From assembly GCF_900113615.1 (NCBI RefSeq), contig NZ_FOPZ01000007.1:1-64000 (forward strand): a DNA stretch of 64,000 nucleotides. The letters are read 5' to 3'. Origin of the DNA: Halorubrum aquaticum. Its GTDB lineage: Archaea > Halobacteriota > Halobacteria > Halobacteriales > Haloferacaceae. This document shows, in pieces, positions 15,269-56,708 of the stretch. The first letter of the stretch is position 1; every line of letters starts with the position of its first letter. The notes under the pieces are model-generated. The model was not told where the DNA came from, made no database searches, and worked only from the letters and a program-made list of their open reading frames with translations. The position numbers were made by a program, and so were the translations under genes.

Positions 15269-15344
15269 GAACCGGTCGAACGGACGAAGCGAACCGGTCG
15301 AACGGACGAAGCGAACCGGTCGAACGGACGAAGCGAACCGGTCG
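15269..15344. repeat. 22-bp tandem repeat, 3.5 copies
   Basis: The unit GAACCGGTCGAACGGACGAAGC is repeated without spacers at 15269-15290, 15291-15312 and 15313-15334, with a partial copy to 15344. The copies are identical, pointing to recent expansion by slippage or unequal exchange. It occupies the gap between the LLM monooxygenase promoter and the end of the CBS gene. Each unit contains ACCGGT, a self-complementary hexamer. Confidence 0.9.
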
Positions 15345-46699: not shown

Positions 46700-48523
46700 A
46701 TGTGTGGGATCATCGGCTACGTCGGCGACCGCCCCGCCCTCCCGATCCTCTCTTCGGGCCTCTCGAACCTGGAGTACCGCGGGTACGACTCCGCGGGCGT
46801 CGCGCTCACCGACGACGCGCTCTCGGTGTACAAGAAGTCCGGAGAGGTGAGCGAGCTCCAGGGAATCCTCCCCGAGTCGACCGACCACACGCGGGGGATC
46901 GGCCACACCCGGTGGTCGACGCACGGCCCGCCGACCGACGAGAACGCGCACCCGCACACGGACTGTACCGGCCGGGTCGCGGTCGTCCACAACGGGATCA
47001 TCGAGAACTACGAGGCGTTGCGCGAGGAGCTCTCGGACCACGAGTTCACGAGCGACACCGACACGGAGGTCGTCCCGCACCTGATCGAGGCGGAGCTCGA
47101 CGCGGGCGCGGAGCCGCGGGCGGCGGTCGAGGCCGCCGTCGACCGGCTGGAGGGGACCTACGCGGTGGTCGTGACGATCGCCGGCGTCGACGAGGTGTAC
47201 GCGACCCGCCGCGACAGCCCGCTCGTCGTCGGCCACGCCGAGGACGGGACGTTCCTCGCCAGCGACGTGACCGCCTTCCTCGAGCACACCCGCGAGGTGA
47301 CCTACATCGAGGACGGCGACTTCGCCGTGGTCGGCGACGACGGGCTCTCGCTGTTCCGCGACGGCGAGGCGGTCGACCCGGCGATCGAGCAGCTCGAGTA
47401 CGAGGCCGACGCCGCCGAGAAGAGCGGCTACGACCACTACATGCTCAAGGAGATCCACGAGCAGCCGCGGGCGCTCAGACAGACGATCTCCGGGCGGATC
47501 GACGCCGACGCCGGGACCGTCGACATCGAGGTCGACCTCCCCGCCGAGTACATCGACTCCATCGAGGAGATCCAGATCGTCGCCTGCGGCACCTCCAACT
47601 ACGCGGGGCGGTACGCGGCGGAGCTCCTCGAGTCGGTCGTGGACGTCCGAACGACCGTGGAGGTCGCGAGCGAGTACGAGTTCGACGGCGGCCGCGACCC
47701 CTGGCGGACGCTCGTGGTCGCGGTGACCCAGAGCGGCGAGACGGCCGACACGCTCTCGGCCATCCGGCGGGCGAAACGCGCCGGCGCGCGGACGCTCGCC
47801 GTCACCAACACGCTCGGGAGCACGATCGTCCGCGAGACCGACGACAGCGTGTTCATCCGGGCGGGCCCGGAGATCGGCGTGGCCGCGACGAAGACGTTCG
47901 CCTCCCAGGTGGCGACGCTCACGCTGCTCGCGGTCCACGTCGGCCGCGCCCGCGGGTCGCTGTCGTACGGGTGGGCGCGCGAACTGCTCGAGTCGGTCCG
48001 GAAGCTCCCGAACGCGGTCCAGGGCGTCCTCGACCGCGAGGACCGGGTCCGGGAGGTCGCCCGCGAGTACGCCGACAGCGACGCGTTCTTCTTCGTCGGC
48101 CGGAAGCTCGGACACCCGGTGGCGCTCGAGGGCGCGTTGAAGCTCAAGGAGATCTCCTACGACCACGCCGAGGGGTTCGCCGCCGGCGAGTTGAAACACG
48201 GGCCGCTCGCGCTCGTCACCGAGGACACCCCCGTGTTGGCGCTGCTGACCGACGGCTCCCGACCGACCGAGACGCTGAACAACGTCAAGGAGGTCCAGGC
48301 GCGCGGCGCGCCGGTGATCGGCGCGGCGACCGCCGACGGCGACGGCGAGGCGGCGGCCGACTCGACGTACCTCGACGTCGAGTTGCCCGTTCCCGTCACC
48401 GGCGCGCTGGAGCCGCTCGTCGCCAACGTCTACTGGCAGCTGTTCGCCTACCACGTCGCCGACGAGAAGGGGCGGCCGATCGACCGGCCGCGCAACCTCG
48501 CGAAGAGCGTCACCGTGGAGTGA
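46700..48523 (+). CDS. glmS: Glutamine-fructose-6-phosphate aminotransferase (isomerizing)
   Basis: A 607-residue glucosamine-6-phosphate synthase. After the initiator Met, Cys2 of MCGIIGYVGDRPALPILSSG is the glutaminase nucleophile. Further glutaminase signatures are HTRWSTHGPPTDENAHPH and HNGIIENYEALREEL. Two SIS sugar-isomerase domains follow (IVACGTSNYAGRYAAELL, VVAVTQSGETADTLSAIRRA, and KLGHPVALEGALKLKEISYD). The tail ends PRNLAKSVTVE, the typical C-loop. It is coupled to the nucleotidyltransferase, providing precursors for amino-sugar polymers or glycans such as those made by the adjacent GT2 locus. Confidence 0.97.
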   Translation: MCGIIGYVGDRPALPILSSGLSNLEYRGYDSAGVALTDDALSVYKKSGEVSELQGILPESTDHTRGIGHTRWSTHGPPTDENAHPHTDCTGRVAVVHNGIIENYEALREELSDHEFTSDTDTEVVPHLIEAELDAGAEPRAAVEAAVDRLEGTYAVVVTIAGVDEVYATRRDSPLVVGHAEDGTFLASDVTAFLEHTREVTYIEDGDFAVVGDDGLSLFRDGEAVDPAIEQLEYEADAAEKSGYDHYMLKEIHEQPRALRQTISGRIDADAGTVDIEVDLPAEYIDSIEEIQIVACGTSNYAGRYAAELLESVVDVRTTVEVASEYEFDGGRDPWRTLVVAVTQSGETADTLSAIRRAKRAGARTLAVTNTLGSTIVRETDDSVFIRAGPEIGVAATKTFASQVATLTLLAVHVGRARGSLSYGWARELLESVRKLPNAVQGVLDREDRVREVAREYADSDAFFFVGRKLGHPVALEGALKLKEISYDHAEGFAAGELKHGPLALVTEDTPVLALLTDGSRPTETLNNVKEVQARGAPVIGAATADGDGEAAADSTYLDVELPVPVTGALEPLVANVYWQLFAYHVADEKGRPIDRPRNLAKSVTVE

Positions 48524-48556: not shown

Positions 48557-50935
48557 TCATTCGTCGGGCGCCGACGCCTCCCGGCCGAAGACCTCCCGAA
48601 GGCGGTCGGCGGACTCCTTGAGCCGCTCGTCGTACGCCGGTTCGTCCCAGGTCGGCGGGACGTACCCGACCGCGTCGAGTCGGTCGCCCTCGATCCCGGG
48701 AACCGCGTGCGCGAGGTTCGTCGGCGTCGAGTCGATCGGCGCGGCGGATCCGGGTGCTTCGGCGTCGTCCTCGCCACCCGCCGGCACGTAGGAGGCGGCG
48801 GCGACGTCGATCGCCTCGAACGGCTCGTACGCGTCGACCCCGTCGGCCCAGAGGTCGCCGAGTCGCCGCCGGCGGCTCGGGTCCGCGACGTTGAGGAGCA
48901 GCCACGGGAGCCGGACCTCGACCGCGTCGGTCGCCGGCGAGACGTGGACGTCCGCGAGCGAGTCGTACTCGGGGGAGTCGGGGTTGCCGTTCCCGTAGCG
49001 GAGCGCGCCCGTCTCGACCGACTGGAACGGAACCCGCTCGCCGGTCGGCGGGACCGTGTACCCGCGGTTGATCGTCATTCGAACGGGCGCGAACGCGCCG
49101 GGTTCGGGGTCGCGATACCGCGAGAGGTCCAGTCCCGCCTCCGCGCCGTACAGGTACGCGAACGCGTCGTATCGGGGGTGGACCGTCACGCGCGAGTCGT
49201 CGGGACCGCCGAGCCGGACGACGAAGTCGGTCGACGCCGAGGTCGCGTCGACGCCGTAGGGGAGTTCGACTCCGTCGCGACCGGTCAGGCCGAGCGTGAC
49301 GAGGTAGTTGGTCCGGTCCCAGTCGACGCCGCCGTCGGCGCTCTCTCCGGCCGTGCCGCCGAGGTCCGCGAACTCGAGTCGGATCGAGAGGTACGCGGCG
49401 TCGCTCGTGACCCGGAGCGCGGTTAGCTCGCGGTCGCCGGCGGCGGCATCGTTCCCGGCGTCGTCGCCGTCGCCGATCGGGGCGGGCGAGCCGGCCGGCG
49501 TCGCCGAAGTCGCGTCGGTCCACGCGCCTCCGGAGCCGTCGAGGGGGACCGCGTTCGCCGGATCGAACGCGAGCAGGCCGAACCGCTGTTCGGGCGTCTG
49601 GACGTTCGACCACTCCGGCCGGCGGTTCGGGTCCGAGAGGTCGGCGAGGTTCCACGTCCGCTTGAACCACTCGTCGTGCCAGCTGAAGACGAGCCCCCCG
49701 GCCGCGCCGACCTCGCGGAGGTCCTCGTACATCGCCGCGACGATCTCGCCCTGCTCCTCTTCGGTGTGGCGGCCCTGGTCGCGTCCGTGGACGTGTCGCT
49801 GGGCGATCCCGCGTGACGAGGGGACCCCGAACTCGGCGACCACGAGCGGGTGGCCGGTGGCACCGACGAGGTCGTTCAGGTAGCCGGCGTAGGCGTTCGC
49901 CTCGCCGCGATGGTCGACGTAGTTCGCGTACTCGGGCGTCTCGTTGAGAAGCGGCGGGTAGTACGGGTAGACGTGGTAGGCCGCGAACGTGCCCGCGTCG
50001 TTGGCGTCGGTCGCGACGACGGCGTCGGGGTCGACGGTGACCGCGTCCTCCGTCTCGAACGGCTCGTAGGGGTGTGAGAGCGGGTCGGTCGTCACCCAGT
50101 TCGTGAACGCGGCGGGCCGCCCGACCCCGTACGCCTCGACCTCGTGGGCCACCGCCCGGTCGAGCCGCCCGGCGAGCCAGCGCTCGAAGGGACGGTCGAC
50201 GGTCGAGGAGAGGTACTCGCCGTCGTACGCGCCGGGCTCGTTCGACCGGTTCGTCTCCCGCACCACGGTCGGCGGCCACTCGATCCCGGCGACGTAGCCG
50301 AGGACGGAGTCGCTCACGTCGGCGTCGTACGTCCCGCTCGCGTGGCCGGGTTCGGGGTCGATCGTCGTCGCGCCGTGGACGACGTCGACGGCCCGACGGA
50401 GCGACCGGTCGAACTCCTCGGCGAGCACGAACGCGTCGCCGGCGGAGATCAGGTGTTCCTCGCCGATCCAGTTGCCCTGGAGGAGGTAGATCGGGTCCGG
50501 ATTCTCCCGGTTGTGGGCGGCGAGCGCGCGGTAGAACGCCGGCGGGTGGACCGTGTACACCCGGACGACGTTCACGTTCAACTCCCCCATCGCGGCGAGC
50601 CAGCGGTCGTACTCCGCGCGGGTGATCGCCGCCTCGCCCGGGAAGCGTCCGGGTTTGGCCATCCCGAGGTTCACCCCGCGGGGGACGAACTCGGCGAACG
50701 GCCCGCCGTCGACGGAGACCTCGAAGCCGTCGTCGCCGACGCGGAAGCGCCGGTCGGGGCCGTCCGGTCGGGCGTCGTCTCCGGACTCGTCGTCGCCGTT
50801 CCCGCTACCGGCTCCGTCCGCACTCCCCTCGTCGGTTCCGCCCCCGTCGCCGTCCGTCCCGGCGCGGAACCCGCATCCGGCGGTCCCGACCGCGCCGGCC
50901 GCCCCCACCGTTCCGAGGAACGCGCGTCTGTGCAC
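48557..50935 (-). CDS. Tat-exported lipoprotein with glycoside-hydrolase-like TIM barrel
   Basis: A 792-residue secreted protein. MHRRAFLGTVGAAGAVGTAG ends in a lipobox Cys21 after a twin-arginine motif. An acidic Gly/Asp-rich linker follows (about 22-60). The barrel-like part (about 80-440) has FVPRGVNLGMAKPGRF, LNVNVVRVYTVHP, and HPLVVAEFGVPSSRG near residue 368, whose Glu is a candidate catalytic residue. SWHDEWFKRTWN lies just after. The C-terminal 300 residues look beta-rich. It fits clan GH-A glycosidases acting on polysaccharide at the cell surface. Family not identified. Position beside a polysaccharide synthase supports a trimming or modifying role. Confidence 0.75.
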   Translation of the reverse strand: MHRRAFLGTVGAAGAVGTAGCGFRAGTDGDGGGTDEGSADGAGSGNGDDESGDDARPDGPDRRFRVGDDGFEVSVDGGPFAEFVPRGVNLGMAKPGRFPGEAAITRAEYDRWLAAMGELNVNVVRVYTVHPPAFYRALAAHNRENPDPIYLLQGNWIGEEHLISAGDAFVLAEEFDRSLRRAVDVVHGATTIDPEPGHASGTYDADVSDSVLGYVAGIEWPPTVVRETNRSNEPGAYDGEYLSSTVDRPFERWLAGRLDRAVAHEVEAYGVGRPAAFTNWVTTDPLSHPYEPFETEDAVTVDPDAVVATDANDAGTFAAYHVYPYYPPLLNETPEYANYVDHRGEANAYAGYLNDLVGATGHPLVVAEFGVPSSRGIAQRHVHGRDQGRHTEEEQGEIVAAMYEDLREVGAAGGLVFSWHDEWFKRTWNLADLSDPNRRPEWSNVQTPEQRFGLLAFDPANAVPLDGSGGAWTDATSATPAGSPAPIGDGDDAGNDAAAGDRELTALRVTSDAAYLSIRLEFADLGGTAGESADGGVDWDRTNYLVTLGLTGRDGVELPYGVDATSASTDFVVRLGGPDDSRVTVHPRYDAFAYLYGAEAGLDLSRYRDPEPGAFAPVRMTINRGYTVPPTGERVPFQSVETGALRYGNGNPDSPEYDSLADVHVSPATDAVEVRLPWLLLNVADPSRRRRLGDLWADGVDAYEPFEAIDVAAASYVPAGGEDDAEAPGSAAPIDSTPTNLAHAVPGIEGDRLDAVGYVPPTWDEPAYDERLKESADRLREVFGREASAPDE

Positions 50936-51050: not shown

Positions 51051-52235
51051 ATGAACACCGATCCCGACCACGACGATCACGACGACTCCGATCGAATCCA
51101 CCCGTTCGAGAGCCTCCTCCGGCTGGCAGACGCCGACTACACGACCGAAGAACGGATCGGCCGCGCGATCGACGTCGGCCGCGAGTACCTCGGCGTCGAC
51201 AACGGCGTCCTCTCGTACACCGGCGAGGGCCGTTACGAGGTGGTCAACACGAACATCGAGTCCGGGCCGTACGCCGAGGGGGGCGTCGTCGACCTGTCGG
51301 AGACGTGGTGTCGCCACGTCGTCGGGACGGGCGAGCCGATCGGGTTCGCCGACGCCGCCGAGAGCCCCTACCGCGACGATCGGGCACGCGAGACGACCGG
51401 ACTGAGCTGTTACGTCGGCGCAGCCGTCGAGATCGACGGGGAGACGTACGGGACGCTGTGTTTCTCCGACGAGGAGCCCCGATCGGAGTCCATCGCCGAC
51501 GAGGAGCGCGACTTCGTCTCGGTGCTCGCGGACTGGGTCGGCCACGAGCTCGAACGCGAGAAACACTACGCCGAGTTGCGCGAACAGAACGACCGGCTCG
51601 ACGAGTTCGCCGGGATAATCGCACACGACCTCCGGAACCCGCTCGCGGGCGCGATCGGGTTCACGGAGCTCGCACGGGAGGAGGCGACCGGCGAGACCGC
51701 GGCGTTCCTCTCGCGGGTCCGGAGCTCGCTCGGCCGCATGGAGACCATGATCGCCGAGTGTCTGATACTGGCGAAGGAGGGGGCCGACGTGGGCGAGCGC
51801 GCGAGCGTCGACCTCGAGGAGATCGTCCGCGACGCCTGGGAGACGGTCCGGACCCGGAACGCGGCGCTGTCGGTCGAAATCGAGCCAGGAACGACCGTCC
51901 TCGCCGACGCGGAGCGGCTCCAGCGGCTCCTCGAGAACCTGTTCCGCAACGCGGTCGAACACGGCGGTCCGGACGTCTCGGTGACCGTCTCGGGCGACGA
52001 CCACGAGTTCGTCGTCGCGGACGACGGCCCCGGACTGCCGCCGGCGGTCGAGGCCGCGCTCGCCGACGCCGACGCCGAGAACGTCAAGTCCTTCGGGCTC
52101 GGGCTGTTGGTCCTCCTCCGGGTCGTCTCCGGGCACGGGTGGGACCTGACGGTCGACAGCTCGGCCGAGGGGACCGCCTTCCGCGTGAGCGACCTCAACG
52201 CCGCGGAGCCGGTCCACGAGGAACTGGACGACTAG
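51051..52235 (+). CDS. GAF-domain sensor histidine kinase
   Basis: A 394-residue soluble kinase. An N-terminal GAF domain (about 20-170; LGVDNGVLSYTGEGRYEVVN, CYVGAAVEIDGETYGTLCFS) is followed by the H-box FAGIIAHDLRNPLAGAIGFT near residue 190. The ATPase domain has LLENLFRNAVEHGG, VADDGPGLP and a reduced G2 FGLGLLVLLRVV. No membrane segment is seen. It lies on the plus strand between two minus-strand polysaccharide genes, and its stop codon overlaps that of the GT2 gene in the palindrome CTAG. It may act with the response regulator at 55598, but this pairing is inference. Confidence 0.9.
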   Translation: MNTDPDHDDHDDSDRIHPFESLLRLADADYTTEERIGRAIDVGREYLGVDNGVLSYTGEGRYEVVNTNIESGPYAEGGVVDLSETWCRHVVGTGEPIGFADAAESPYRDDRARETTGLSCYVGAAVEIDGETYGTLCFSDEEPRSESIADEERDFVSVLADWVGHELEREKHYAELREQNDRLDEFAGIIAHDLRNPLAGAIGFTELAREEATGETAAFLSRVRSSLGRMETMIAECLILAKEGADVGERASVDLEEIVRDAWETVRTRNAALSVEIEPGTTVLADAERLQRLLENLFRNAVEHGGPDVSVTVSGDDHEFVVADDGPGLPPAVEAALADADAENVKSFGLGLLVLLRVVSGHGWDLTVDSSAEGTAFRVSDLNAAEPVHEELDD

Positions 52236-54370
52236 TCGTCGGCGTGGTCCGGCGGATCCACTCCGCTGTCTACGGGTTCCACCCCGCCGTCCGCCGGTCC
52301 CGTCCCGTCGACCATCCAGACGTAGCCCTCCCGACCCTCTCCGTCGTCGAACTCGCGCGTCCAGACGAAGCCGCCGTCTCCCACTCCGTCGCTCGGATCC
52401 GTGGTCCAGACGAACCCGCCGTCGCCGACCCCGAGCGAGAAGTCCGTCGTCGCGACGATCCGGCCGGATGCGGGGTCGTCGTCGGCACCGAACAGCAGGA
52501 CGAAGCCGCCGTCGCCCGCGCCCTCTGAGGGGTCCGTGGTCCAGACGAACCCGCCGTTCCCGACTCCCTCGGTGAAGTCGTCGGTCCGGACGAACCCGCC
52601 GTCGTCGAGTCCCGCGCCCGGGTCCGGAGTCCGGAGGAAGCCGCCGGCGGTGGCGCCGACGATCCCCGCGGGTGACTCCGCCGCGGACGACTCCGTCTCC
52701 ACGGACGACGACACCGCCGCGGACGACTCCGTCTCCACCCCCGCGATCCGGGAGATCCAGCGGATCCCGTCGGTGCCGGGCTCCTCGACGAGTTCGTCGA
52801 TCCACGCGAACCCGGCGGCGTCGATGGGGTCGCCGTCGGGGAGGTCGTCGGCGAACCGGTCGATCCACGCGAACCCCCCGTCCGGGTCGTCCGCGCCCGC
52901 CGCCGTCGAGGCCGTCACGTCCGGCGGGTCGGCGGCCGCCGCGGGGGTGCCCGCGCCGCCGAACCCGCGCCGCTCCATCGCGCCCCACGACTTCTCGCCG
53001 CGGAGGAACTCGACGAGCCCGTGCCAGGCGACCGCCGTCTTCCACTGGCGGTAGCCGAAGTTCTCGAGGACGCCGTACCACAGCAGCCGGAGCACGTCCT
53101 TCGGGTCCTCGTAGCGGTTGAAGCTCCACACCTCGCTGAACACGCCGAACCACGAGAGGAAGACGCCGACGCCGACCGTGAGAAGCAGGAAGACGAGGAA
53201 GAACTCGACGTTCAGGATGCCGAAGTACCACGCGAGCGGGAGGAGGACGTAGCCGAACCCCTCGATGAGCGGTCCCAGCGCCTCCGCGGCGGTGAAGAAG
53301 GGCAGGATCGCGGTTCCGACGCGCCCGTACCGTCGTCTGAAGAACACCCCCCGGTTGGCGACGACCGTCTCGAGCATCCCGCGGTACCAGCGGCGCCGCT
53401 GGCGGCCGAGGGTGCGCAGGTCCGACGGCACCTCGGTCCACGCGACCGGTTCCGGGAGGAAGTCGACCGTGTACTCGACGTCCTCGTCGGAGAGGTACCG
53501 ATGGAGCCGGACGACCACGTCGAAGTCCTCGGTGACCGTGTCGTGGCGGTAGCCGCCGATCTCGCGGACGCGGTCGGTTCGGAAGACGCCGAAGGCTCCC
53601 GAGATGAGCACGAGCCCCTTGAGCCGGCTCAACCCGAGCCGACCGGAGTAGAACGCGCGGAGGTACTCCATCACCTGGATCCCCGGGAGCCCGGTCCTCG
53701 GGAGGTTGATCTCCTGGACCTCGCCGTCCTCGACGACGCAGTCGTTGGCGACCCGGATCGTTCCCCCGCTGGCGACCGCTTTCTCCGGCTCCTCGAGGAA
53801 CGGGCGGACGATCTGTAACAGGGCGTTGCGGTCGATGACCGTGTCGGAGTCGACCGCACAGAACAGCTGTTGGTCGGTGAGCCACAGTCCGGCGTTGAGC
53901 GCGTCGCTTTTCCCGCCGTTCTCCTTGTCGACGACGAACAGGTCCTCGTGTCGCGTCGAGCGGTACACCCCGCGGATCGGCTCGGCGGGCACGTCGTAAG
54001 GGAGGGCCGCGTCGATCCGCTCCAACTCGAACGCCTCGCGGAGCCGGTCCATCGTGGCGTCCGTCGAGCCGTCGTTGACCACGACCACCTCCTGGTCCGG
54101 GTAGTTCAGCGCCAGCATCGACCGGACGCTCTCCACGATGGTCGCCGCCTCGTTGTACGCGGGGACGACCATCGCGACGCCGGGGTAGAAGGGGCTGTCG
54201 AACGGCCGGAACGGCGGGTTCCACTCCGACTCGCGCACGCTGTCACGCAGTTCGAAGAGCGCGAGGACGTGGATCAGGAGGTAGCCGAGGTTGACGAGGA
54301 GGTAGTAGCCGACGATGAACGCGCCGGAGCCGACCACCAGCGCGACCGCGAGGTCCTCGAGCGTCGTCAT
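52232..54370 (-). CDS. Processive GT2 polysaccharide synthase with C-terminal GGFVWT repeats
   Basis: A 712-residue membrane glycosyltransferase of the PgaC/cellulose/hyaluronan synthase type. It has an N-terminal helix, then AMVVPAYNEAATIVESVRSM, the DxD region CAVDSDTVID, the acceptor-site TEDFDVVVRLHR, and Q-R-R-R-W in LGRQRRRWYRGML, which marks processive enzymes. Three to four transmembrane helices follow. From about residue 495 to the end is an acidic tail of about eleven short repeats, period near 15, with GGFVWTTDP or variants. The ATG at 54370 overlaps the HEAT-protein stop (TGATG). The longer frame upstream lies inside that gene. Confidence 0.9.
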   Translation of the reverse strand: MTTLEDLAVALVVGSGAFIVGYYLLVNLGYLLIHVLALFELRDSVRESEWNPPFRPFDSPFYPGVAMVVPAYNEAATIVESVRSMLALNYPDQEVVVVNDGSTDATMDRLREAFELERIDAALPYDVPAEPIRGVYRSTRHEDLFVVDKENGGKSDALNAGLWLTDQQLFCAVDSDTVIDRNALLQIVRPFLEEPEKAVASGGTIRVANDCVVEDGEVQEINLPRTGLPGIQVMEYLRAFYSGRLGLSRLKGLVLISGAFGVFRTDRVREIGGYRHDTVTEDFDVVVRLHRYLSDEDVEYTVDFLPEPVAWTEVPSDLRTLGRQRRRWYRGMLETVVANRGVFFRRRYGRVGTAILPFFTAAEALGPLIEGFGYVLLPLAWYFGILNVEFFLVFLLLTVGVGVFLSWFGVFSEVWSFNRYEDPKDVLRLLWYGVLENFGYRQWKTAVAWHGLVEFLRGEKSWGAMERRGFGGAGTPAAAADPPDVTASTAAGADDPDGGFAWIDRFADDLPDGDPIDAAGFAWIDELVEEPGTDGIRWISRIAGVETESSAAVSSSVETESSAAESPAGIVGATAGGFLRTPDPGAGLDDGGFVRTDDFTEGVGNGGFVWTTDPSEGAGDGGFVLLFGADDDPASGRIVATTDFSLGVGDGGFVWTTDPSDGVGDGGFVWTREFDDGEGREGYVWMVDGTGPADGGVEPVDSGVDPPDHADD
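52250..52890 (-). repeat. Tandem repeats encoding the GGFVWT tail of the GT2 synthase
   Basis: About eleven degenerate units of roughly 45 bases. The core GGxxVWT is encoded around sequences such as ACGAACCCGCCGTC on the plus strand. Units at about 52395-52440 and 52515-52560 are nearly the same at the DNA level, and others have drifted. One unit is interrupted by a longer segment (LLFGADDDPASGRIVATTDF). The units span residues about 495 to 700 of the synthase. Confidence 0.8.
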
Positions 54371-55596
54371 CACGGAAACCCCTCCCGACCGCGCGTGACC
54401 GTCCCCCGATCGGGGATCTCGCGCGCGAGGTCGTCGAACCGGGCGTGTTCGGCCGCCCACGCCCACGCGTCCTCGAACTCGGCGGGGTACGCACTCTCGT
54501 GGCCGTCCGGTGATTCGACCGATCGGACGCCCCCGCGGCCGCGGTGTGACAGCGCGGCCTCCGCCGCCACGACGCGGGTCCGGCCGTCGGGTTCCGCGGC
54601 CGCGAGCGTCCGGAGCGCGGACAGCGCCTCCGGGTCGCCCCACGCGCCGAGGAGCCGATAGGCGCTCGCTCGGACGATCGGAGAGGGGTCCTCGCCCACC
54701 GCGGTCGGATCGATCCCGGACCGCAACGGGGCGTTCCAGCCGTACGCGCCGAGCGCGCGCCAGGCGGCGACCCGCACCCGCTCCTCCGGGTTCGACACCG
54801 CCTCGAGGACCCACGAGAGGTCGGCGTCGCCGACGACCGTGTGGAGGTGGCCCGTCACGGACAGCACCTGCTGTTGGAGCGCCGGCTCCCAGTCGTCGAA
54901 CTCGGCCGCCGCCCGGTCGAAGAGCGGCCCGGGATCGGCCTCGCCGACCCGGTACAGCGTGTCGATCCCGAACACCGAGAACGCGGACGGGTCGTCGCCG
55001 AGGAGCAGGTCGACGCCGGTCGACGCGAGGTCCGGCGCGTCGCTCGCGTACAGGATCCGGACGGCCGCCGCCCGTTCGCGCGGCGTGTCGGTACAGTGCG
55101 TCTCGAGCAGGTCGCGAGCGGGCGGATCCCGAAGCAGGGCGAGCCAGGTCAGCGCGTGAAGCCGGTCCCAGTAGTCGCCCTCGCGTATCTCCCGGCGGGA
55201 CCGCTCCGGGAGGCCCAGCGCGTCGCCGAGCCCAGCCAACCGTTCCGCGTCGCTCCCGTCGAGCTGGCGCAGGTACACGTCGAGCAGGGACTCGAGTTCG
55301 TCGCGGCGGGCCGCCGACAGCGACGCGACCCACGGCTCCCAGTCGGGGACCTCGGAGCCGTACAGTCGGTCGAGGAGTTCGGAGCGGAGGTCCGCCCGGA
55401 TCGGCTCGCGGCGCCGCCGACGCAGCGCCGCGAGAAGCGAGTAGCCGACCGTGATGAGGGCGGCCGAGACGAGAAGCGATCCGAGGACGACGAGCCCGAA
55501 CGAGACGACGAGGGACGGGAGATCCGTCGCTTCGACGGCCGCGACCGGCGGGTTCGACAGCGAGCCGCCGAGGAGACGCGACGAGGGGACGTACAC
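54370..55596 (-). CDS. Membrane-anchored HEAT-repeat protein
   Basis: A 408-residue protein with one N-terminal transmembrane helix (about residues 22-50, LVVSFGLVVLGSLLVSAALI) and a long helical-repeat domain. HEAT-like units are seen in VRVAAWRALGAYGW, VRASAYRLLGAWGDPEAL and RTRVVAAEAALSHRG. The GTG at 55596 lies one base after the stop of the response regulator. Its own stop overlaps the synthase start. The three genes therefore form a tight operon. It probably works as a scaffold or regulator of the synthase; no function is established. Confidence 0.82.
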   Translation of the reverse strand: MYVPSSRLLGGSLSNPPVAAVEATDLPSLVVSFGLVVLGSLLVSAALITVGYSLLAALRRRRREPIRADLRSELLDRLYGSEVPDWEPWVASLSAARRDELESLLDVYLRQLDGSDAERLAGLGDALGLPERSRREIREGDYWDRLHALTWLALLRDPPARDLLETHCTDTPRERAAAVRILYASDAPDLASTGVDLLLGDDPSAFSVFGIDTLYRVGEADPGPLFDRAAAEFDDWEPALQQQVLSVTGHLHTVVGDADLSWVLEAVSNPEERVRVAAWRALGAYGWNAPLRSGIDPTAVGEDPSPIVRASAYRLLGAWGDPEALSALRTLAAAEPDGRTRVVAAEAALSHRGRGGVRSVESPDGHESAYPAEFEDAWAWAAEHARFDDLAREIPDRGTVTRGREGFP

Positions 55597-55597
55597 G

Positions 55598-55999
55598 TCA
55601 CTCCTCCAGCAGTTTCTCGATCCGTGCCAGCAGTTCGTTCGGGCTGAACGGCTTGGTGAGGTACTCGTCGGCACCGGCCTCGAGCCCGGTCAACACGTCG
55701 TCCTCGCGGCCGCGCGAGGTGAGGAGGACCACCGGGACGTCGGGGTCGACCGCGAGCTCGCCCCGGCGGATCGCACGGAGCAGGTCGATCCCCTTCAGTC
55801 GCGGCATCATCACGTCGAGAACGACGACGTCGGGGTTCACGCCGGGCGAATCGAGGGCCTCGCGCGCCTCGAGGCCGTCGTGACAGACCGTGAGGTCGAA
55901 CCCGGCCATCGACAGTTTGTACTGGAGGATCGACCGGATCGCCTCGTCGTCGTCAGCTATCACCGCCGGTCGGGACACGTCACACAGAAACACAGTCAT
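55598..55999 (-). CDS. Single-domain response regulator
   Basis: A 133-residue CheY-like receiver with no output domain. The acidic pocket (IADDDEAIRS, residues 15-24), the phospho-acceptor Asp in VVVLDVMMPRLKG (about 62), the conserved VVLLTSRGREDDV, and Lys in DEYLTKPFSPNELL are all present. The ATG at 55999 gives MTVFLCDVSRPAVI. It is the first gene of the response regulator-HEAT-synthase operon. It may act by protein contact on the HEAT protein or synthase. It is divergent from riboflavin synthase with only 76 bases between starts. Confidence 0.9.
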   Translation of the reverse strand: MTVFLCDVSRPAVIADDDEAIRSILQYKLSMAGFDLTVCHDGLEAREALDSPGVNPDVVVLDVMMPRLKGIDLLRAIRRGELAVDPDVPVVLLTSRGREDDVLTGLEAGADEYLTKPFSPNELLARIEKLLEE

Positions 56000-56075
56000 C
56001 GACTTGAGAGTATCGGGAGGCGCGCCGGCGTCCGAACCCAGAACGGCTATCCGTCGGCCGGCCCCAGTTCCGAGC

Positions 56076-56708
56076 ATGTTCACCGGCATCGTCGAGGGGA
56101 CCGGGACCGTCCGGACGCGGACCGAGACGCCCGACGGCCTCCGGCTGCGGATCGGCGTCGACGGGGTCGACGGCTTCGACGACCTCGCTCACGGCCAGTC
56201 GATAAGCGTGAGCGGGGTCTGCCTGACCGTCGAGGAACACGGAACGGGCGGGCGAAACGGCGGAGACGCCGGGACGGAGGCCTTTTTCGAGGTCTTCCTC
56301 GCGGCGGAGACGGTCGCGAAGACGTACCTCGGCGACCTCCGCGCGGGCGACGCGGTCAACCTCGAGCGCGCGATGCCCGCCGACGGGCGGTTCGACGGCC
56401 ACGTCGTACAGGGCCACGTCGACACGGTGGCGGAGGTACGGGCGATCGAACGGGTGGGCGAGGACTGGCGGTTCACCTTCTCGGTCCCGGAGGGACACGG
56501 CCGCTACCTCGTCGACAAGGGCTCCGTGACGCTCGACGGGATCTCGCTCACGATCGCCGAGAAGTGCGGAGACGAGTTCGACGTGGCGATCATCCCGACG
56601 ACGCACGAACTGACGACGCTCTCGGGGAAGTCCGCCGGCGACCCGGTCCACCTGGAGGTCGACGTGATCGCGAAGTACGTCGAGAACATGCTGGACGGGT
56701 ACGCCTAG
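56076..56708 (+). CDS. ribE: Riboflavin synthase
   Basis: A 210-residue bacterial-type riboflavin synthase built from two lumazine-binding repeats. The first starts MFTGIVEGTGTV with GQSISVSGVCLTVEE. The second has FDGHVVQGHVDTVAEV and STCV-like SVTLDGISLTIAE. It dismutates two 6,7-dimethyl-8-ribityllumazine molecules. Many archaea use an unrelated RibC-type enzyme, so this bacterial type is a haloarchaeal trait. The start at 56076 fits the family. The first riboflavin genes are at 34.2-35.7 kb. Confidence 0.94.
   Translation: MFTGIVEGTGTVRTRTETPDGLRLRIGVDGVDGFDDLAHGQSISVSGVCLTVEEHGTGGRNGGDAGTEAFFEVFLAAETVAKTYLGDLRAGDAVNLERAMPADGRFDGHVVQGHVDTVAEVRAIERVGEDWRFTFSVPEGHGRYLVDKGSVTLDGISLTIAEKCGDEFDVAIIPTTHELTTLSGKSAGDPVHLEVDVIAKYVENMLDGYA

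Follow-up and report, generated by a model that had tools for sequence, protein, structure and literature searches.

The synthase locus

Within the window, the whole 64,000-nucleotide stretch of DNA that was analysed, the gene of a putative GT2 polysaccharide synthase lies in the following context:

51051..52235, plus strand: GAF histidine kinase, convergent with GT2 (Pfam GAF, HisKA, HATPase_c); conserved neighbour
52232..54370, minus strand: GT2 synthase, 712 aa (Pfam Glyco_tranf_2_3, E=6.9e-19)
54370..55596, minus strand: membrane-anchored HEAT-repeat protein, directly upstream of GT2 and overlapping it (Pfam HEAT_2, E=9e-14)
55598..56089, minus strand: response regulator, receiver domain only (Pfam Response_reg, E=2.8e-26); conserved neighbour

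The GT2 frame runs uninterrupted on the minus strand from an ATG at 54370 to a stop codon at 52232-52234, with zero frameshifts. Its start codon overlaps the HEAT stop codon (TGATG), and its stop codon overlaps that of the convergent kinase within a CTAG palindrome, the four bases of which (52232-52235) provide both stop codons; the flanking sequence, GACGACTAGTCGTC, is palindromic. The response regulator, HEAT and GT2 genes show operon-like packing and overlap, and their order is kept with or without the C-terminal tail of GT2 described below; the HEAT gene adjoins GT2 in both tailed and tail-less haloarchaea. The response regulator, the HEAT protein, GT2 and the GAF histidine kinase constitute a conserved haloarchaeal module. 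In the literature on haloarchaeal exopolysaccharide and PgaC, and on modules of HEAT proteins with synthases, we found no description of the module or of the tail, nor experimental data on the locus.

In Halorubrum, glmS is found close to the module, which is compatible with an amino-sugar polymer as the product; the searches made named none of PgaA, PgaB or PgaD. In the window's own clade the glmS gene (46700-48523, plus strand) flanks the module on one side; other Halorubrum species (loci L040-L046) carry a copy of about 65% identity on the opposite side. We also noted a large putative lipoprotein of 792 aa at 48557-50935 (minus strand), whose gene is conserved close to this module in many haloarchaea and also adjoins an actinobacterial homologue (L061). 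Its glycoside hydrolase matches were all sub-threshold (GH113, E=0.17; PDB GH2, E=0.87), and it possibly represents an undescribed hydrolase family. Elsewhere in the window, positions 15269-15344 hold a perfect 22-bp tandem repeat of 3.5 copies, GAACCGGTCGAACGGACGAAGC.

Identification of the enzyme

A preliminary description of this DNA had taken GT2 for a processive polysaccharide synthase, and its Pfam assignment, invariant motifs and Foldseek matches all agree. D174/D176 (DxD), T280-E281-D282 (TED) and Q324-R327-W328 (QxxRW) are invariant across 25 orthologues, and the top Foldseek matches of the GT2 model are the hyaluronan synthases (HAS) 8smm, 7sp7 and 7sp8, followed by BcsA (prob 1.00, with E values between about 1e-13 and 1e-11). 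The TM-scores, at 0.35-0.57, are modest, partly owing to the unstructured tail. By these matches the fold resembles that of the solved synthases, with a channel of membrane helices around a GT-A domain. GT2 is predicted on these grounds to be a membrane-embedded processive polysaccharide synthase of the hyaluronan/PNAG/cellulose-synthase kind. The best NCBIfam model is PgaC_IcaA (TIGR03937), whose 422.3-bit cut-off is not reached (128.4 bits); the CelA model gives 53 of 699 bits, and the Pfam scan found no PilZ domain in GT2.

The conserved enzyme core finishes at residue 470 with SWGAMERRGF, in which W462, G463, R467 and F470 are invariant across 25 orthologues. This W-G-x3-R motif comes after the last interface helix predicted by AlphaFold (residues 423-457). 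In XlHAS1 the gating loop, which lies after the third interface helix and before a membrane helix, bears WGTSGR, and replacement of the Trp of this motif by Ala abolished synthesis in a 60-minute reaction (PMC11750622); in solved hyaluronan synthases the motif sits at the catalytic pocket (PMC11750622). The W-G-x3-R spacing is equal in GT2 and XlHAS1 (PMC11750622), and we infer that W-G-x-M-x-R-x-G-F of GT2 corresponds to the hyaluronan-synthase gating-loop motif.

Architecture and topology of the tail

GT2 continues past this motif as a Gly/Asp-rich tail of 242 residues with a net charge of -43. The motif and the parts of the tail are as follows:

52961..52990, minus strand: SWGAMERRGF, end of the conserved core and putative gating-loop motif (W-G-x3-R), from residue invariance
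52235-52960, minus strand: whole tail, residues 471-712
52883..52960, minus strand: linker 1, Ala/Asp/Gly-rich, variable, residues 471-496; dN/dS about 0.3-1.1, many interspecies indels
52742..52882, minus strand: conserved F-x-W segment (GGFAWID, AGFAWID, DGIRWISRIA), residues 497-543
52646..52741, minus strand: linker 2, Ser/Glu/Ala-rich, variable, residues 544-575; dN/dS up to 1.45
52286..52645, minus strand: array u1-u8, eight units of exactly 15 residues, from unit coordinates, register and dN/dS (0.16-0.46)
52235..52285, minus strand: C-terminal end, acidic, variable; dN/dS about 0.3-0.8 in the window's own clade

The tail reported in the preliminary description is real. It lies in one open frame, and the self-match of the repeat block is 0.37 at lag 15 and 0.36 at both lag 30 and lag 45, where shuffled sequences, taken across all lags, have a 99.9th percentile of 0.245; G[FYIVL]xW occurs 7 times in the tail, compared with a mean of 0.26 and a maximum of 3 after shuffling. 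The interval first assigned to it, 52250-52890, was nearly right. The initial count of about eleven repeats holds for the motifs in all, but the regular 15-residue array comprises eight units, and the three further F/I-x-W motifs upstream of it (52742-52882) are irregularly spaced. The cores of u1 to u8 read GGFLRT, GGFVRT, GGFVWT, GGFVLL, GRIVAT, GGFVWT, GGFVWT and EGYVWM, Trp being missing from u1, u2, u4 and u5 in the window species. In the conserved F-x-W segment, F, W, D and DG-RW are invariant over 14 tails, and linker 2 is long solely in the window's own clade. The GT2 of H. sodomense (locus L042) has a second tandem repeat, of DPTDAA, at its C-terminal end (before 8016), past the GGFVW array.

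Hydropathy analysis gave three hydrophobic segments in GT2 and no predicted membrane segment beyond the core. Since the last 50 core residues are non-hydrophobic and include 9 K/R, the tail is placed on the cytoplasmic side, a prediction based on hydropathy, charge and homology. The HEAT protein begins with a hydrophobic segment followed by RRRRR, by which its HEAT part is also placed in the cytoplasm. These predictions bear on the earlier suggestion that Trp residues of the tail bind polymer or sugar in the style of a carbohydrate-binding module. Although the repeats are aromatic-rich and the enzyme is a polysaccharide synthase, the tail follows a putatively cytoplasmic motif with no later membrane segment predicted, the polymer would leave through the enzyme's own membrane channel, and carbohydrate-binding families gave zero matches. 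Neither these nor beta-propeller families (NHL, BNR/Asp-box) matched the tail convincingly, the NHL match (E=0.019) being confined to 2 of 14 tails; DGGFVW resembles the Asp-box D-x-G-x-x-W, yet the Asp-box family profile gave no match. We consider sugar binding by the tail very improbable.

Distribution of the synthase and its tail

GT2 was present in 18 of the 52 Halorubrum genomes searched. The full-type tail, its array always in the same register, is found in 14 of the 18; H. lipolyticum has lost the tail altogether, LUM.57 has two SRFEW motifs and two others are without a tail; in G024 the array is shorter by three whole units. The tail is thus present, with intact frames, in Halorubrum orthologues. 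The tailed enzymes, with that of H. lipolyticum nested among them, form one clade, with support of 100/98 in the GT2 tree and likewise 100/98 in the HEAT tree.

At the order level, a profile of the repeat matched a single protein, the GT2 of Halorubrum, in 12 of 392 genomes; Halorubrum was the only one of 95 genera with a match. At the family level, a longer tail profile matched 17 of 170, one of them a chance-like secreted protein (L036). We did not detect any convincing match to the repeat elsewhere in its own genome (L002, E=3.96, was taken as chance), in plasmids, phages and viral contigs, or in Pfam, PHROGs and PDB (the best PHROG hit, E=0.0015, was to a family of no assigned function). 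The tail repeat matches no described domain and is restricted to this Halorubrum clade; the preliminary remark that PgaC and cellulose synthases have no such tail was correct, as it is absent from both models.

Across the class, GT2 orthologues were found in 24 of the 86 genera sampled. Among those outside Halorubrum with readable ends, nearly all end 1-30 residues past W-G-x-M-x-R-x-G-F (for a handful, no end was found by motif search). The exception is G159, from another genus of the family, whose GT2 is 65% identical and has a 208-residue tail with units DGFLWG, DGFRWG and DGFEWG spaced about 10 residues apart; F-x-W occurs 9 times in it where 0.57 are expected. Tail-less lineages keep G159 and Halorubrum apart in both the GT2 and the HEAT tree, and direct comparison of the G159 and window tails gave only E=6e-4, in low-complexity sequence. 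Given this weak match and the tail-less lineages between, independent origin is the simplest reading: the G159 tail probably arose separately, and a deep common origin, although conceivable, is not the simplest account. What recurs is the F-x-W core and not the period, in line with the behaviour of short binding motifs. The short tail of LUM.57, a genome placed near Halorubrum by the HEAT tree, may be related to the Halorubrum tail. When related genomes were searched for DGFxWG outside GT2, three matches came up in G001; of the two that were readable, one is an M20-like peptidase and the other a secreted protein of unrelated type, and they were taken as chance.

Age of the array and selection upon it

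The tails of 14 Halorubrum orthologues align in a single register. Units at the same position in different species have a DNA identity of 0.795 (0.844 for u2, u3, u6 and u7), compared with 0.637 (0.770 for the same four) between different positions within one gene, and units cluster by position, not by species. Because same-position units are more alike across species than units are within a gene, the array predates the clade and is neither expanding nor being homogenised. It is old and fixed, and had a single origin in the ancestor of a Halorubrum clade. The earlier view of a tail in expansion, built on partly near-identical DNA units, found no support on either count, since units keep their positional identity across species and differ within the gene (identities 40-80%, no near-identical pair). 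Ongoing homogenisation of the units was rejected on the same clustering.

In pairs with usable counts, dN/dS is 0.07-0.26 for the core, 0.16-0.46 for the array and about 0.3-1.5 for the linkers, and the dS of the array is similar to that of the core. The array is under purifying selection and the linkers are near-neutral. As first proposed, aromatic residues form the conserved core of the tail: in the five Trp units F, V and W are nearly invariant over 13 species. Units u1, u4 and u5 are without F-V-W in most species, always at these same positions, and the otherwise conserved Trp of u2 is lost in the window species.

These patterns can be set against the view that slippage of repeats in GC-rich DNA gave rise to the tail as a tolerated by-product with little function, freed by inversion of the downstream kinase gene. 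The tail occurs in few lineages, with one loss, one shortening and the u2 Trp gone in the window species. Beside the tailed Halorubrum synthases, and in G142, the kinase runs convergent with GT2, and in most tail-less haloarchaea it directly follows GT2 in the same direction (loci compared: L079 and L038-L047 against L048-L058); inversion of the kinase gene may have released the 3' end of the GT2 gene. G142 nonetheless combines a convergent kinase with a tail-less synthase, so orientation alone is insufficient. The low dN/dS of the array with its core-like dS, the position-specific unit identity held since the clade ancestor, and the similar F-x-W tail in another genus all speak against a by-product, and we regard this explanation as quite unlikely.

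Structure prediction

Two single-chain AlphaFold predictions were made, both from shallow alignments. Prediction of the tail alone, as suggested at the outset, could be carried out but with low confidence (mean pLDDT 41.6); within the full protein the block means are 24-48, and no confident fold was obtained either alone or in context. Strands were predicted at residues 523-529 and 537-543 with low confidence, and there is about one strand per 15-residue unit, a hairpin of u4-u5 being moderately confident (block means up to 76). As the alignment is shallow, low confidence is compatible with a fold.

The main rival to the reading that we favour below would have the array fold as a small beta-repeat domain, with one GFVWT strand per unit and Gly/Asp turns, serving as a single binding site or regulating the gating loop. 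The retained 15-residue register in tailed species, the position-specific and conserved degeneracy of u1, u4 and u5, and the predicted strands with the u4-u5 hairpin are what such a domain would give. Against it stand the low pLDDT values from the shallow alignment, the 10-residue period that accompanies the same aromatic core in G159, and the absence of three whole units from G024. A folded domain seems possible but doubtful.

Proposed function of the tail

We put at a little under even the chance that the tail is a flexibly tethered cytoplasmic element for multivalent docking or clustering. Its predicted cytoplasmic side, flexible linker, aromatic cores and acidic spacers, and a tail in another genus that shares F-x-W only, argue for docking or clustering over sugar binding. 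In the proposed sequence of events, the synthase of the Halorubrum clade ancestor would have gained a C-terminal cytoplasmic extension straight after the putative gating-loop motif, consisting in order of a flexible linker, the conserved F-x-W segment and the acidic array of eight 15-residue units built around G-G-F-V-W cores. The F-x-W cores would act as hydrophobic contact points, with acidic Gly/Asp loops between them that would be soluble in high salt. The tail might then cluster the synthase, or recruit a regulator of the module (the HEAT protein, the response regulator or the kinase) to the enzyme, and either could control polymer output. Its action would resemble that of FG-type repeats, or of a regulatory appendage at the position of PilZ in cellulose synthase, although it belongs to neither group. 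Besides the HEAT results given in the next paragraph, two observations run counter to docking: the u4-u5 hairpin and the fixed degenerate units u1, u4 and u5 suggest a folded element and not equivalent motifs, and the tail has proved dispensable for a lineage (lost in H. lipolyticum, with three units gone in G024).

In a special case of docking, the neighbouring HEAT protein would have the tail as its dedicated ligand. The two genes are adjacent and overlapping, the HEAT domain and the tail are both predicted to be cytoplasmic, and there is a precedent in the HEAT-repeat karyopherins, which bind Phe-repeat nucleoporins (PMC7764567). The HEAT protein, first proposed as a partner in the preliminary description, keeps that candidacy, but it also accompanies tail-less synthases, no acceleration of its evolution was seen after tail loss in H. 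lipolyticum, and the parts of the alignment that were read show no tail-specific insertion. We judge a dedicated ligand unlikely. A wider generalisation, that F-x-W tails on the gating loop of hyaluronan-synthase-like synthases evolved repeatedly in haloarchaea and tie polymer output to kinase/response-regulator/HEAT signalling by docking or clustering, also strikes us as rather unlikely, though slightly less so.

The control of synthase-dependent exopolysaccharides in archaea is poorly known, and a module and an undescribed, conserved, regulatory-looking tail are now defined. Natural controls exist in the tail-less orthologues of other genera, the loss of the tail within the genus, and the different, probably separate tail of another genus. 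If the generalisation were true, F-x-W tails linking synthase to signalling module would be an archaeal means of controlling exopolysaccharide synthesis.

Comparison with known systems

The secreted haloarchaeal repeat protein L036, which we take to be DUF7282-like, has the string GGFVTVHDSSL in common with the tail and a weak HMM match (E=5.8e-5). In contrast to the tail, its units are about 100 aa long, and it has an N-terminal signal-like segment and a C-terminal hydrophobic anchor. The repeat-only model gave no match of this type in the order-level sample, and L036 was rejected as a relative, the GGFVTVHD string being chance-like and the protein secreted.

The Gly/Phe-rich aromatic repeats of the tail, with a HEAT protein in the same operon, recall the FG-repeat nucleoporins and HEAT karyopherins. 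There is no homology, however: the GT2 unit is 15 aa long, F-V-W-containing, acidic and strictly periodic, and docking here is putative.

Among synthases, PgaC/IcaA, the PNAG synthase (TIGR03937), is the best NCBIfam model for GT2 and glmS is near the Halorubrum module, but GT2 scores 128 bits, far under the 422-bit cut-off. We know of no PgaC with such a repeat tail. The cellulose synthase BcsA is likewise a processive synthase with a cytoplasmic part C-terminal of the gating loop, where its regulatory PilZ domain lies. GT2, unlike BcsA, has no PilZ by Pfam, and its tail is a repeat and not a c-di-GMP-binding barrel; to our knowledge, haloarchaea are largely without PilZ-type c-di-GMP control of such synthases. 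The hyaluronan synthases CvHAS and XlHAS1 are the closest solved folds (E about 1e-13), and share the DxD, TED and QxxRW motifs; their gating-loop motif after the last interface helix is the putative counterpart of W-G-x3-R in GT2. They differ in having more membrane helices after the gating loop, whereas the GT2 core stops at the motif and the repeat tail comes next.
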